NCBI RefSeq assembly: GCF_007747215.1
Contig: NZ_CP036273.1
Coordinates: 186,001 to 250,000 of the forward strand
Length of the DNA: 64,000 bases
Source: Urbifossiella limnaea
Lineage (GTDB): Bacteria; Planctomycetota; Planctomycetia; Gemmatales; Gemmataceae
Direction of reading: 5' to 3'
Shown: positions 3,002 to 55,257 of the stretch, piece after piece
Layout: the number at the start of each line of letters is the position of its first letter
How positions within the stretch are numbered: position 1 is the first letter of the stretch
Position numbers and translations under genes: made by a program
Notes under the pieces: model-generated
The model's input: only the letters and a program-made list of their open reading frames with translations
What the model was told of the DNA's origin: nothing
The model's database searches: none

Positions 3002-3910
3002 ATGGCCATTCCCGTCGCGCAGCCCGGCACCACGCGGATCGGTTGGATCGGCACCGGCGTCATGGGCCGGTGGATGTGCCAGCACGCGATGAGCAAGGGC
3101 TTCTCCGCAACAGTCTACAACCGCTCGAAGGACAAGCTGCAGCCGCTCGTCGACCTCGGGGCGAAGCCCGCCGCCACGCCGAAGCAGGTGGCCGAGAACT
3201 CGGACGTGGTGTTCGCCATCGTCGGCTTCCCGAAGGACGTGCGCGAGGTGTTCCTCGGCGCCGACGGGGCGCTGGCCGGGAGCAAGCCCGGCACCGTGCT
3301 CGTGGACATGACGACGAGCGACCCGAGTCTCGCCCAGGAGATTCACGCCGCGGCGAAGGCGAAGGGCGTGCACGCGCTGGACGCCCCGGTGAGCGGCGGC
3401 GACGTGGGGGCGAAGAACGCGGCGCTCTCCATCATGATCGGCGGCGAGCCGGACGTGGTGGCGGCGGTGCAGCCGATCTTCGAGGCGATGGGGAAGACGA
3501 TCGTTCACCAGGGCGCGCCGGGTGCCGGCCAGCACACGAAGATGGTGAACCAGATCCTCATCTCGTCGAACATGATCGCGGTGTGCGAGGGCCTGCTGTA
3601 CGGCCACAAGGCGGGCCTGGACCTGGAGACGGTGTTCAAGAGCGTGTCGGTCGGCGCCGCCGGGAGCAAGGCGCTGGAGGTGCTGGGGCCGCGGATGCTG
3701 GCGCGGAACTTCGAGCCCGGCTTCTACGTCGAGCACTTCATCAAGGACATGGGGATCGCGCTGGCCGAGGCGGAGAAGATGAACCTGAGCCTGCCGGGCC
3801 TGGCGCTGGCGAAGCAGCTGTACGAGGCGGTGCGGGCGCAGGGCTACGGCCGCAAGGGCACTCACGCGCTGCTGCTGGCGCTGGAGCACCTGAACGGCAT
3901 CAAGCGGTGA
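3002..3910 (+). CDS. NAD(P)-dependent beta-hydroxyacid dehydrogenase (3-hydroxyisobutyrate dehydrogenase family)
   Basis: 302 residues, the usual length for this family. The N-terminal Rossmann fold has [10 protein letters not shown] (GxGxxG, about 13-22). The substrate-binding signature is [11 protein letters not shown] and the catalytic lysine is in [11 protein letters not shown]. The all-alpha C-terminal domain ends with [10 protein letters not shown], a stretch typical of the GARD/HIBADH group. Such enzymes reduce or oxidise small beta-hydroxyacids such as 3-hydroxyisobutyrate, tartronate semialdehyde or glyoxylate/succinic semialdehyde; the sequence does not settle which. An aldehyde dehydrogenase follows in the same orientation at 4008, so the pair could work in tandem on a semialdehyde. 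A family-3 palindrome fills most of the gap between them and may limit read-through. Confidence 0.85.
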
Positions 3911-3917
3911 GCGAGCC

Positions 3918-3997
3918 GGCGAGCGGCCCGCGTGAGCGGGCTGTTCGTTCGCGTATCGAGTCGCGCAGGAACAGCCCGCTCACGCGGGCCGCTCGCC
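3918..3997. repeat. Family-3 inverted repeat, copy 1
   Basis: The arms at 3918-3946 and 3969-3997 are perfect reverse complements over 29 bp, with a 22-nt spacer. Each arm is itself a small hairpin, GCCCGC-gtga-GCGGGC, so the DNA or RNA could fold either as one long stem or as two short ones. It starts 7 nt after the dehydrogenase stop and ends 10 nt before the aldehyde dehydrogenase ATG. A second copy with compensating changes lies at 39287-39372. Confidence 0.9.
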
Positions 3998-5438: not shown

Positions 5439-5655
5439 CGGTTTTCACCCCGAAGGGGTGACAGCCCTCAGCCCAGGGCAAGGTGCGCAGCACCGCCGCC
5501 CTGGGTACGGCGTGGAATGGGTTTGCAGGCTGAAGGCCTGCGAGCCGGCTCGCAGGCCTTCAGCCTGCACGGCCCCTCGCTCCCCCGACCCAGGGCGGCG
5601 GCCCTTCGGGCCTTGCCCTGGGCTGAGGGCTGTCACCCCTTCGGGGTGAAAACCG
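5439..5655. repeat. Family-1 modular palindromic element, copy B
   Basis: 217 bp. The outer arms 5439-5483 and 5611-5655 are perfect complements over 45 bp. The inner pair GCCGCCCTGGGT (5494-5505) and ACCCAGGGCGGC (5588-5599) is identical to copy A. The centre, 5525-5568, is a perfect 44-bp palindrome that contains and extends the GCAGGCTGAAGGCCTGC hairpin of copy A. The slot hairpins differ from copy A: CCCCGAAGGGG at the ends, GGTGCGCAGCACC on the left, GGCCCTTCGGGCC on the right. It fills the gap between the convergent aldehyde dehydrogenase stop (5435) and mutY stop (5665), so it could serve both transcripts as a 3' structure. Confidence 0.92.
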
Positions 5656-16206: not shown

Positions 16207-17712
16207 ATGACGGAGCAGACCGCGACCGGACTGGATGCCATCGAACCCGCCCCCCCGACCGACACCCCCGACGAGCCCGCCCCGCCGCCCCCGCCCGCGA
16301 ACGCCGGCGGCAGCGCCGAGCTCCTGAAGCTCGCGCTGCCGCTGGTCATCAGCCAGAGCTTCATGACGGTGCAGGTGCTCGCCGACACGTACCTGCTCGC
16401 CCGCCACAACACCGACGAGATGACCGCCTCGTTCCCGGCGGTCATGTGGTACTGGCTCGGGTTCGGCTTCCTCAGCGTCACCGCCGGGTACACGTCCACG
16501 TTCGTGGCCCAGTACACCGGCGCCGGCCGGCCGCACCGCGTCGGGCCGGCGGTGTGGCAGGGGATTTACTTCGCCGCCGTCGCCGGCCTCGGCTTCCTCA
16601 CGGTGGTGCCGCTCGCCGGGTGGCTCACGTCGCTGGCCGGGCACCCGGCGCACATCCAGGAACTCGAAGCGGTGTACCTCCGCTGCTTCGCCTTCGCCGC
16701 GCTGCCGATGCTGGTGATGCAGGCGATCAACGGCTTCTTCTCCGGCCGCGGCGACACCTGGACGGTGCTGCTGATCGAGGCGTTCGGCACGGCCGTGAAC
16801 GTGGCGCTGGCGCTGCTGCTGATCTTCGGCAGATGGGGCTTCCCGGAGATGGGCATCGCCGGCGCCGGCATCGCCACCGTCGTCGGCAGCTGGGCCGCGG
16901 CGCTCCTGGCGCTGGCGCTGTTCCTGCGGCCGAAGTTCCGCGACGGCTTCGCCACCGCCGCCGGCTGGCGGTTCGACCGCGACCTGTTCCGCCGCCTGAT
17001 GAAGTACGGCGGCCCGGCCGGGATGCAGGTGTTCCTCGACGTGCTGGTGTTCCACCTGTTCACGCAGTTCGTCGGCCAGCTCGGCGACGCGGCGCTCGGG
17101 GCCACGACGCTGACGATCCGGTTCAACATGGTGGCGTTCCTGCCGATGATGGGGATCGGCCAGGCGGTGTGCATCCTGGTCGGCCAGCGGCTCGGCGGCG
17201 ACCGGCCCGACATCGCCGAGAAGACGGTCTACACCGGCACCGCGTGGTCGTTCGGCTACATGTGCATCGTCGCCACGGTGTACCTGACGCTGCCGCAACT
17301 GCTGGTGTCGGCGTTCGAGCCGGAGCAGGACGTGGCGAAGTTCGCCGCCATCGCCGCCATCGTGCCGAGCCTGCTGGTGTGCGTGGCGGTGTACTCGCTG
17401 GCCGACGCGGTGAACCTGACGTTCGCGTTCGCCCTCCGCGGCGCCGGCGACACCCGGTTCGTGACGTGGCTGACGTTCGCGCTGGCGTGGCCGGTGATGG
17501 TGCTGCCGACGGCGGCGCTGGTGACGTGGCGGGCCGAGTTCGCGGCGGCGTTCCCGGGGGCCGGCGACCCGCTCTACTGGGCGTGGGGCTTCGCCACGGC
17601 GTTCATCTGCTGCATGGCCGTGTGCTTCGTGTGGCGGTTCCGCACCGGGAAGTGGAAGACGATGCGCGTCATCGAGCCGGGCGTCGCGGAGGAAGCAGAA
17701 GGCAATTTTTGA
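16207..17712 (+). CDS. MATE-family multidrug/cation efflux transporter
   Basis: 501 residues with about 12 hydrophobic segments. A cytoplasmic proline-rich N-terminus (PPPPPANAGG) leads into the first helix, LKLALPLVISQSFMTVQVLA. Matching internal halves carry the MATE marks: a first-half QAINGFFSGRGDTWTVLL and a second-half FALRGAGDTRFVTWLTFALA, the RGxGDT repeats typical of the NorM-like branch. It exports cationic compounds in exchange for Na+ or H+. It follows the DUF1080 gene by 38 nt and may share its transcript. The stop codon lies inside the left arm of the 48-bp-arm inverted repeat. Confidence 0.88.
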   Translation: MTEQTATGLDAIEPAPPTDTPDEPAPPPPPANAGGSAELLKLALPLVISQSFMTVQVLADTYLLARHNTDEMTASFPAVMWYWLGFGFLSVTAGYTSTFVAQYTGAGRPHRVGPAVWQGIYFAAVAGLGFLTVVPLAGWLTSLAGHPAHIQELEAVYLRCFAFAALPMLVMQAINGFFSGRGDTWTVLLIEAFGTAVNVALALLLIFGRWGFPEMGIAGAGIATVVGSWAAALLALALFLRPKFRDGFATAAGWRFDRDLFRRLMKYGGPAGMQVFLDVLVFHLFTQFVGQLGDAALGATTLTIRFNMVAFLPMMGIGQAVCILVGQRLGGDRPDIAEKTVYTGTAWSFGYMCIVATVYLTLPQLLVSAFEPEQDVAKFAAIAAIVPSLLVCVAVYSLADAVNLTFAFALRGAGDTRFVTWLTFALAWPVMVLPTAALVTWRAEFAAAFPGAGDPLYWAWGFATAFICCMAVCFVWRFRTGKWKTMRVIEPGVAEEAEGNF

Positions 17713-17813
17713 CGGGATGAACAGGACAAGACAGGATGGAAGACAAAGACAGAAATCAATTTAAATTCTGTCTTTGTCTTCCATCCTGTCTTGTCCTGTT
17801 CATCCCGTCAAAA
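17707..17813. repeat. Perfect 48-bp-arm inverted repeat (GACAGGATGGAAGAC type)
   Basis: 17707-17754 and 17766-17813 are perfect complements over 48 bp around an 11-nt AT-rich loop (ATCAATTTAAA). The element starts with TTTT and ends with AAAA, so either strand gives a long stem followed by a T-run. It spans the convergent ends of the MATE gene (stop at 17710-17712, inside the arm) and the exported protein at 17826. Unlike the other repeats here it is only ~40% GC in composition. It contains ACAGGAYRRAA-like tandem units (ACAGGACAAGACAGGATGG), a repeat theme known to recur in many planctomycete intergenic regions. Confidence 0.92.
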
Positions 17814-22683: not shown

Positions 22684-22727
22684 CCGCTTGCGGCGGAGCG
22701 GCGTGGATACCGCTCCGCCGCAAGCGG
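22684..22727. repeat. Family-2 palindrome (17-bp arms)
   Basis: CCGCTTGCGGCGGAGCG (22684-22700) and its exact complement (22711-22727) around a 10-nt loop. Same GCTTGCGGC core as the copies at 37202, 40638 and 49104. This is the only family-2 copy that lies 5' of a gene, 20 nt upstream of the LRR-protein ATG; it could be in that message's leader. Confidence 0.88.
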
Positions 22728-37201: not shown

Positions 37202-37243
37202 GCCGCTTGCGGCGTAGCGCCCGGGCGCTACGCCGCAAGCGGC
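37202..37243. repeat. Family-2 perfect 42-bp palindrome
   Basis: 21 bp (GCCGCTTGCGGCGTAGCGCCC) runs directly into its exact complement with no loop, GC-rich throughout. It lies 6 nt from the stop of the Ldh2-type dehydrogenase (37250). No T-run on either side. The copy at 40638 has the same design with GTTGCAGC in the centre. Confidence 0.92.
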
Positions 37244-38393: not shown

Positions 38394-39383
38394 GTGGACG
38401 ACGCGAACGGGGCGAGATTCCGGGCCGGGCTAGGATACGGCCTGGCGGCGTACACGCTGTGGGGGCTGGTCCCACTTTACTTCTCGGCCCTGAAGCACGC
38501 CGGCGTCCCGGCCCTCGAAATCCTCGCCCACCGCATCGCCTGGTCGCTCCCCGTCCTGATGCTGCTCACCGCCTGCGCCGGCGGCTTCGCCGACCTCGGC
38601 CGCGTCTTCCGCTCCCGCAAGCTCGTCCTCACGCTGCTGGCGTCGTCGCTGTTCCTCGCGGTCAACTGGCTGCTCTACATCTATGCCACCGTCACCGGCC
38701 GCGTTACGGAGGCGAGCCTCGGCTACTACATGATGCCGCTGGTGAACGCCGCCCTCGCCACCACCGTGCTCGGCGAGCGGCTGCGGCCGCTGCACTACCC
38801 GGCGCTCGCGCTCGTCGCGCTGGGCGTGGCCATCCCGTTCGTCGCGGCGGGCACGTTCACCTGGCTGGCCGTGCTGCTGCCGGTGTCGTTCGGCGTCTAC
38901 GGCCTGATCCGCAAGCGCGTGGCGGTCGAGAGCGTCACCGGGCTGACGGTCGAGTCGCTGCTGATGCTGCCGCTGTCGCTCGGCTACCTGGTCTACCTGT
39001 CGGCGGCGGGCGAGAACCACTTCGCGGGCGTCGGCACGACGAACGCGCTGCTGGCGGTCAGCGGCGTGGTGACGGTGACGCCGCTGCTGCTGTTCACGCT
39101 GTCGATCCGCCGGCTGCCGCTGCTGGCGGTGAGCTTCATCCAGTTCGTGTCGCCGACAGTGCAGATGCTGCTGGCGGTGACGGTGCTGGGCGAGACGCTG
39201 ACGCCGGACCGGGTGGCGGCGTTCGTGTGCGTGTGGGTGGCGGTGGCGGTCTTCGTGGGGGACGCGGTGTGGCAGGCTCGAGAGAGCCGGCGAGCGGCCC
39301 GCGTGAGCGGGCTGTTGGGGACCGTGGTGAGTCGCGCGAAGAAACAGCCGGCTCACGCCGGCCGCTCGCCGGTCACACGATGA
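38394..39383 (+). CDS. rarD: RarD-type permease (DMT/EamA superfamily) with repeat-encoded tail
   Basis: 329 residues, ten membrane helices. GYGLAAYTLWGLVPLYFSAL and LEILAHRIAWSLPVLML are the RarD hallmarks; AVNWLLYIYAT and NYYMMPLVN-like GYYMMPLVNAAL follow. A metabolite/chloramphenicol-type exporter. Ordinary RarD proteins end at about 295-300 residues; here the last 32 residues (298-329), RRAARVSGLLGTVVSRAKKQ and on, are translated from the family-3 inverted repeat (39287-39372), and the stop falls just past it, overlapping the convergent M24 gene by 11 bp. The GTG start has no strong Shine-Dalgarno. Confidence 0.88.
   Translation: MDDANGARFRAGLGYGLAAYTLWGLVPLYFSALKHAGVPALEILAHRIAWSLPVLMLLTACAGGFADLGRVFRSRKLVLTLLASSLFLAVNWLLYIYATVTGRVTEASLGYYMMPLVNAALATTVLGERLRPLHYPALALVALGVAIPFVAAGTFTWLAVLLPVSFGVYGLIRKRVAVESVTGLTVESLLMLPLSLGYLVYLSAAGENHFAGVGTTNALLAVSGVVTVTPLLLFTLSIRRLPLLAVSFIQFVSPTVQMLLAVTVLGETLTPDRVAAFVCVWVAVAVFVGDAVWQARESRRAARVSGLLGTVVSRAKKQPAHAGRSPVTR
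39287..39372. repeat. Family-3 inverted repeat, copy 2, translated within rarD
   Basis: Arms 39287-39316 and 39343-39372, 30 bp each, complementary except at two positions. The left arm keeps CCCGC-GTGA-GCGGG, the right arm has CCGGC-TCAC-GCCGG, so each arm has kept its own internal hairpin by a paired change. The element is wholly within the rarD reading frame and abuts the M24 gene stop. Confidence 0.88.
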
Positions 39384-40557
39384 TGCGATGCACTTCCGTC
39401 TGCGGCTCGCCGCCGGTGACGTGGACCGCCCCGGCGGCGTCGACGTACACGTCGACTTCGCTGCGGGCGCCGAACTCGGGCAGGTAAATCCCCGGCTCGA
39501 TGCTGAAGCACGTCCGCGGGATGATCCGCCGGTCCTCGCGCGTCTCCAGCCCGTCGATGTGCGCCCCGTTGCCGTGGACCTCCTGGCCGATGTTGTGCCC
39601 GGTCCGGTGCGTGAACTGGTCGCCGTACCCGGCCTTCTCGATCACCCCGCGCGTCGCCGCGTCGATCTCCCAGCCGAGCAGCGGCTCGCCGGCCGCGAAC
39701 GCCGCCTTCACCTTCGCGATCCCCGCGTCGCGGCCCGCGGCCACGACGTTGAAGATGTTCACGTACTTCTCCGGCACCTCGGCCCCGACGTAGGCCACGC
39801 GGGTGTAGTCGGCGTAGACGGCGCGCGGGCGGTTCATCTTCGCCCACAGGTCGATCAGCACCCAGCTGCCGGGCACGACCGGGGCGTTGGACGCGGCCGT
39901 CGTCTCGTAGTGCGGGTCGCCGCTGTGCGGGCCGACGCCGACGATCGGCGGGCTGTACGTCACCATGCCGCGCTCCGCGAAGTGCGCCATGATGCGCGCC
40001 TGCACCGCCGCCTCGGTCACGCTCCCCTTCGCGCGGATTTCCGACGCGATGAACTCGAACGCCACGTCGTAGGCGTCGCGGCAGTGGCCGGCGGCCTCGA
40101 AGTGGCTCTTCTCCTGGTCGGCGTCCCACGTCGCCTCGAACTGCTGGATCAGGTCGCCGCTCGGCACCACCTCGACGCGGTACGACTTCACCAGCTCCAC
40201 CGTGCCGGCGTCCACGCGGCCGATGTACGGGTTGGCGTTCCGCGGCGAGTACTCCATCGCCACCCGCTTGGCGCCGATCACGAGCTCGCCGACGCCCGTC
40301 TCCAGGTCTTGCCAGCGGCGGTAGACGGTTTTCGTGGTGCCGGGGAGGTGGTCGAGCGCGGCGGGCTCGATGGCGTGGACGAGTTTGAGCGGCGCCCCCT
40401 CGGCGGGGACGTAGTAGAACCAGCGGCGCGACAGCTTCTTGGCGTCCAGGTCGCAGACGCGCTGGGCGAGCACGTTGGACCCGCGGAAGTCGTACAGCAG
40501 CCAGCCGTCGAGGCCGGCGTCGCGGACGGCAGTCTGAACCGCACCCAGGTCGAACAC
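39373..40557 (-). CDS. M24-family metallopeptidase (Xaa-Pro aminopeptidase-like)
   Basis: 394 residues from a GTG with AGGAGG six bases ahead. A creatinase-like N-terminal domain, then the pita-bread M24 fold: GVGPHSGDPHYET, metal ligands in LIDLWAKM (Asp) and YADYTRVAYV (Asp), HRTGHNIGQEVHGNGAHID (His), and FSIEPGIYLPEFGARSEVD (two Glu). All five dinuclear metal ligands are present, so it should be active. It removes N-terminal residues before proline or hydrolyses related amides. Its stop abuts the family-3 repeat in rarD. Confidence 0.9.
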   Translation of the reverse strand: MFDLGAVQTAVRDAGLDGWLLYDFRGSNVLAQRVCDLDAKKLSRRWFYYVPAEGAPLKLVHAIEPAALDHLPGTTKTVYRRWQDLETGVGELVIGAKRVAMEYSPRNANPYIGRVDAGTVELVKSYRVEVVPSGDLIQQFEATWDADQEKSHFEAAGHCRDAYDVAFEFIASEIRAKGSVTEAAVQARIMAHFAERGMVTYSPPIVGVGPHSGDPHYETTAASNAPVVPGSWVLIDLWAKMNRPRAVYADYTRVAYVGAEVPEKYVNIFNVVAAGRDAGIAKVKAAFAAGEPLLGWEIDAATRGVIEKAGYGDQFTHRTGHNIGQEVHGNGAHIDGLETREDRRIIPRTCFSIEPGIYLPEFGARSEVDVYVDAAGAVHVTGGEPQTEVHRIIV

Positions 40558-40637: not shown

Positions 40638-40679
40638 CGCCGCTTGCGGCGTTGCAGCGCTGCAACGCCGCAAGCGGCG
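40638..40679. repeat. Family-2 perfect 42-bp palindrome
   Basis: 21 bp (CGCCGCTTGCGGCGTTGCAGC in two 21-base halves, no loop). 14 nt past the SGNH-hydrolase stop (40694) and 81 nt upstream of the M24-peptidase start. Same arms as 37202 with a different centre (GTTGCAGCGCTGCAAC). Confidence 0.92.
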
Positions 40680-49103: not shown

Positions 49104-49147
49104 GCCGCTTGCGGCTTCGCGTTGGGCGACGCGAAGCCGCAAGCGGC
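49104..49147. repeat. Family-2 palindrome (19-bp arms)
   Basis: GCCGCTTGCGGCTTCGCGT (49104-49122) and its exact complement (49129-49147), loop TGGGCG. It ends 9 nt before the stop (49157) of the DUF1549 gene and starts 37 nt before the cytochrome gene ATG on the same strand, so it lies between two genes of one operon. Confidence 0.9.
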
Positions 49148-55053: not shown

Positions 55054-55257
55054 GGTTTTCAGCCCGAAGGGCTGGGAGCGCTCAGCCCAGGGCAACGCCC
55101 TGGGTCCGCGGCACGAATCCGCCCCCAGCCTGAAGGGCTGGGAGCCGGCTCGCAGGCCTTCAGCCTGCGGGGTGGTGGGAATCGCCTACCCAGGGCGGCG
55201 GTCGCTGACGCTCCCTTGCCCTGGGCTGAGGGCTGTCAGGCCTTCGGCCTGAAAACC
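55054..55257. repeat. Family-1 modular palindromic element, copy C (diverged)
   Basis: Outer arms around 55054-55095 and 55216-55257 are clearly homologous to copies A and B: GGTTTTCAGCCC...GGGCTG with CTCAGCCCAGGGCAA on the left, and TTGCCCTGGGCTGAGGGCTG then TCAGGCCTTCGGCCTGAAAA on the right. The left arm has diverged (GGGAGCGCTCAG for GACAGCCCTCAG) and the left inner pair is partly lost, so the stem is imperfect. The slot hairpins are again different (GCCCGAAGGGC, GGCCTTCGGCC). It ends 5 nt before the DUF1501 stop and starts 31 nt upstream of the next gene, so it interrupts the operon. Confidence 0.88.

Follow-up and report, generated by a model that had tools for sequence, protein, structure and literature searches.

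A REP-dimer element of a planctomycete repeat family, read in frame in the C-terminal tail of RarD in Urbifossiella limnaea

Rickettsia palindromic elements (RPE) are palindromic repeats of tens of bases that are inserted in frame in unrelated proteins. A second group of comparable sequences, the GTAG/CGTC-tagged REPs and their dimers, consists of short palindromes and inverted pairs that lie less than 20 bp from the 3' ends of ORFs, where REP ends can supply stop codons (PMC3733652). Some REPs are intragenic and translated, including in uvrA, with slightly more than 10% of the intragenic ones at the ends of coding regions, and recB of two Xanthomonas species carries REPs at about the same place, a small precedent for shared sites (PMC3733652). 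A REP that lies no more than 15 nt from a stop is reported to be able to stall ribosomes (PMC12306157). REPs at or inside genes are thus already known and the kind of association described here is not new; what appear to be new are a family devoid of the GTAG/CGTC tag, the association of that family with a divergent group of RAYTs, and the sharing of occupied sites between species.

The window analysed here is a stretch of 64,000 nucleotides corresponding to positions 186001-250000 of the U. limnaea genome (7.8 Mb, single contig). Within it, rarD (38394-39383, plus strand) encodes a 329-residue EamA family transporter RarD (TIGR00688, E 9e-54), and its 3' portion contains an 82-nt REP-dimer element (GGCGAGC...GCTCGCC; 39289-39370, no strand assigned). 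The left arm, of the CCCGC-GTGA-GCGGG type, occupies 39289-39316 on the plus strand and the right arm, of the CCGGC-GTGA-GCCGG type, 39343-39370 on the minus strand; the inverted repeat as a whole has 30-nt arms (39287-39316 and 39343-39372) that are 93% complementary, it folds with a z of -6.8, and the arm pattern gave no chance matches in 100 shuffles. Only 2 nt separate the element from the stop codon (39373-39375) of a convergent M24 metallopeptidase gene (39373-40557, minus strand), and the rarD stop (39381-39383), outside the element, falls inside the 3' end of that gene. The original prediction derived the last 32 residues of RarD from the inverted repeat; the repeat is real, and lies wholly in frame within the 329-aa protein, but it supplies 28 residues (299-326), with residues 327-329 (VTR) and the stop encoded beyond it. 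Because the element is 82 nt long, which is not a multiple of 3, rarD reads only the right arm in the frame usual for this family and passes through the left arm in the second frame that is open. In the AlphaFold model of RarD the membrane bundle is confident, the last helix runs up to residue 316 and residues 317-329 are disordered.

The element belongs to a large dispersed family. A second copy in the window (3918-3997, no strand assigned) lies 7 nt past the stop of the gene at 3002-3910 and 10 nt ahead of the next start, and is purely intergenic, as had been proposed. Across the genome, searches with a model of 81 positions and with a pattern recovered at least 67 full copies of a REP dimer of ~81 nt, with the consensus GGCGAGCGGCCCGCGTSAGCGGGCTGTTCC, then a variable centre and then the mirror image. 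Each dimer is built of two mirror-image palindromic arms (GGCGAG-stem-GTNA-stem), each of which alone is a hairpin with a GTNA loop; the arms combine the GGCGAGC edge with a GCGTGAGC core. Element edges are sharp across the family, and no flanking direct repeat indicative of a target-site duplication accompanies 65 of the 67 copies. Many dispersed short palindromes, often in inverted dimers, are what is expected of REPs, but this family differs from the tagged ones: an unpaired GTAG or CGTC tag at the palindrome end is absent from all 67 elements, every one of which has the edge GGCGAG, the arms start GGCGAGC and carry a GCGTNAGC core, and the element is nearly always a full dimer of constant length.

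Subfamily B (GGCGAACGGCCGGCGTSAGCCGGCTGGTC) is present both here and in the sister species G001. Two, at most three, copies occupy positions shared with G001, whose assembly is 84% complete so that the comparison covers part of its copies; such scarce sharing is consistent with lineage-specific insertion. Among 199 genomes of the phylum the pattern GAGCG....GCGTNAGC is strongly enriched in U. limnaea, modestly in a few others (G158, G159, G080) and mostly at background elsewhere. The arm pattern was also seen well over its control in G158, G080, G124 and G245 (family f30) and in G159. A search of a plasmid collection with the family consensus gave no match, and a literature search found nothing on this repeat family in Gemmata. 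The REP superfamily may extend to other classes of the phylum.

Other inverted repeats occur in the window. Those at 1830-2020 and 5439-5655 (arms of 47 and 45 nt) contain CAGCCCTCAGCCCAGGGCAAG, with a third part-copy at 55081-55230, and the same palindrome type flanks a canonical Y1_Tnp gene at genome positions 118501-118836. The inverted repeat at 17707-17813, nearly perfect and with arms of 48 nt, is low in G+C (TTTTGACGGGATGAACAGGACAAGACAGGATGG...) and unlike the other repeats of the window. Compact hairpins with arms of 18-19 nt at 22684-22727, 37202-37243, 40638-40679 and 49104-49147 have CCGCTTGCGGCG in common and are possibly a further repeat family.

The distribution of copies was determined with genes called by a home-made codon model on 80 genome stretches and the window. 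A stop codon lies within -18 to +15 nt of 55 of the 67 copies, compared with 2% of random positions, and nine copies lie inside genes where chance would place 82%, so that the family, like described REPs, is mostly extragenic and downstream of coding regions. In 13 genes the stop is a TGA inside an arm, and 12 of these encode proteins that end in ERPA (11 in GERPA, one in SERPA), with the thirteenth ending in GERPS. Among the genes called, only rarD has a C-terminal tail that runs across an entire element. The remaining eight intragenic copies are internal and all are read in one frame, as xASG(P/R)R(E/Q)RAV...GRSP or nearly so; by Pfam their hosts are a DcuC carrier, two PMT-type glycosyltransferases, a double UvrA, an FAD/Fe-S oxidase, a histidine kinase, a planctomycete cytochrome (PSCyt/PSD1) protein and RNase R. 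Several lie within a single Pfam domain, for example RNB or DcuC, and in seven of the eight the length is divisible by 3, the exception being the 83-nt copy in UvrA. With in-frame copies in rarD and eight other genes the family resembles RPE, which are likewise described as palindromes of tens of bases translated in frame in unrelated proteins (PMC3733652); it differs from them in phylum and probably in sequence, in having most copies past stop codons and in the existence of a candidate transposase.

This placement also bears on the view that the host keeps these elements for their function, as transcription terminators or as hairpins at mRNA 3' ends, and that the rarD copy terminates transcription of the peptidase gene and is translated only incidentally. 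Copies are tightly placed 0-15 nt past stops and occur in both orientations between convergent genes, the stems are very stable, and some hairpin is found at the rarD-peptidase junction in several species. The genes, however, are shared with G001 while the element positions mostly are not; most relatives have no strong hairpin at this junction, eight copies are internal to genes, and the conservation of the arm sequence exceeds what a terminator needs. As a full explanation we regard it as unlikely, although a terminator role and a mobile origin are not exclusive of one another.

The two arms of the rarD element differ as had been noted, CCCGC..GCGGG against CCGGC..GCCGG, and this difference had been read as compensatory change and as a sign that RNA structure is selected within the reading frame. 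Neither reading holds. Of 62 distinct arms, 33 have C-G at positions 12/21 and 25 have G-C; the rarD element merely combines one of each, and compensation arising in place in rarD is ruled out because the two types are standing subfamily variants genome-wide. Comparison of the 62 distinct arms gave no sign of selection for RNA structure inside rarD, and since arm-to-arm identity across elements is as well preserved as local pairing, the data do not tell local hairpins from one long hairpin.

The genome also contains a candidate for the mobilizing enzyme. This protein (6913948-6914484), the one strong member of a RAYT-like group here, matches both NF047646 (REP_Tyr_transpos; E 4e-12, 46 bits, below the NCBIfam cutoff of 80) and PF01797 (Y1_Tnp; E 1.2e-5, barely above cutoff), and its gene has GGCGAGCCGGGAGCGTGAGCGACCGG palindromes on both sides, with the same edge and core as the family arms. 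It departs from described RAYTs in its score, in a longer N-terminal block (WLLT..YGTWLPGD.RG) and in flanking palindromes that have no GTAG tag. The flanks represent a related subfamily and not the exact rarD-type arm, so the association of a RAYT gene with its own repeats is found here at the level of the superfamily. Palindromes with GA(A/G)C..GCGTNAGC arms occur at 11 of 17 strong RAYT-like loci, eight of them on both sides, and at none of 18 other Y1_Tnp (IS200-type) loci, most of which have palindromes of different kinds. In G001 arms of subfamily B border the RAYT-like gene, whose reading frame ends GERPA, and in G002 the arms bordering this gene are of the same type as the palindromes in the RNase R and UvrA loops of that genome. 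Since related arms flank the RAYT-like gene both here and in relatives, movement of the repeat family by RAYT is likely. The canonical Y1_Tnp gene at 118501-118836, 1 kb from the DcuC copy, is ruled out as the mover, as its flanking palindrome is different and such loci lack the tagged arms. At locus L343 in G015, which holds another gene of this transposase group, the flanking palindromes differ in stem (CCCCACTGCGTGAGCGGTGGGG) but have the same GCGTNAGC core, a hint that stem and core may have co-evolved with each transposase.

At the eight internal sites congeners often hold other palindromes, also in frame. The RNase R loop contains related arms in G002 and G004, unrelated ones in G005 and G001 and none in G003 and G021, and the rarD tail bears different palindromes in three other species. 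Arms of at least 12 were found in 12 of 30 site segments, compared with 4.75% of control segments. These shared loops and the tail may be permissive landing sites, as their different occupants suggest, and repeated insertion into tolerant segments is the simplest reading. The broader proposal, that loops and tails in the Gemmataceae are recurrent landing sites into which species-specific and sometimes unrelated palindromes insert in frame, repeatedly rewriting segments of core enzymes such as RNase R, UvrA and the Fe-S oxidase as well as the RarD tail, we put forward tentatively, at slightly less than even chances. Alternatively, each site would have received one ancestral insertion that was later altered in each species through gene conversion with its own repeat family. 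The GAGC..GCGTNAGC scheme common to the RNase R loop (G000, G002, G004) and the rarD tail (G000, G005, L288) fits conversion, which could account for the cases with related arms only; the unrelated occupants of the RNase R loop (G005, G001) and of the Fe-S oxidase loop (G001, G002, G004) are beyond its reach, and the loops of G003 and G021 are short and palindrome-free. We consider it unlikely.

The history of the rarD tail can be followed in relatives. A tree of the RarD core pairs the window with L291, a G001 record (support 90/79), and RarD of G001 (81% identical, 319 aa) and of G004 (317 aa) is repeat-free and ends ...(V/L)TR at the same stop, which in both species also overlaps the convergent M24-peptidase gene; RarD of L284 and L289 ends VTR as well. 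Past WQ(A/V)R the tail has 33 residues here and 21-23 in G001, G004 and L289. That a lost stop near residue 297 allowed read-through into an adjacent intergenic repeat, as the original prediction held, agrees with a generic RarD model of 296 positions and a repeat that starts at residue 299, but is very improbable and, as capture at that residue, ruled out, since repeat-free relatives of the same genus and family extend 20-40 residues past ~297, several to the same site in the peptidase gene, and 20 family orthologues have a median length of about 322 aa. Since repeat-free relatives share the stop, the tail and its stop predate the element. What survives of the proposed capture is that a dispersed, mobile-type repeat, absent from the sister species, encodes most of the tail; the tail was already coding and the stop is not repeat-derived. 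No orthologue was seen to share the tail sequence in a genome that lacks the repeat elsewhere. Among 22 folded tails, strong hairpins (z < -6) are confined to the window, G005/L276, L286 and L288 and all differ in sequence, and the G005 arm belongs to a family of its own that is multicopy in that genome (14 hits on one strand and 15 on the other).

No exact empty site for the rarD element was recovered, the tail of the sister species having diverged, and because of this divergence and a length that is not a multiple of 3 the event would have involved further change. Judged from these relatives, it is best described as a probable in-frame insertion or replacement in an existing tail and not as capture of intergenic DNA, with the element apparently adding about 10 residues to a tail already translated and already variable. 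In G001 a large nested palindrome lies directly past the rarD stop, between two sequences that nearly repeat the 3' end of the peptidase gene (TCACACGATGACGGTGTGAACCGCC, TCACACGACGATGGTGTGAACCGCC); the junction in that species is also occupied, but outside the reading frame.

The account that we favour with good confidence is that a REP dimer of a planctomycete superfamily, most likely moved by a RAYT-like transposase of the single-strand (HUH) type whose gene lies at another locus, landed in the rarD tail, where the ancestral stop was retained. Copies would persist almost only where they are harmless: just past stop codons, with a possible role as 3'-end hairpins for both directions, or in loops and tails that tolerate an in-frame insert. 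In rarD the insertion would have hit a short tail that evolves fast, 2 nt beyond the stop of the convergent peptidase gene; the element, being open in the frame concerned, would have lengthened the translated tail, with translation still ending at the ancestral stop. These observations carry the biology of REPs within genes into a planctomycete family that has its own transposase group and a tag that appears not to have been described, and comparisons of the same site occupied by different repeats would test directly how well proteins tolerate peptides derived from repeats and how RAYTs choose their targets.
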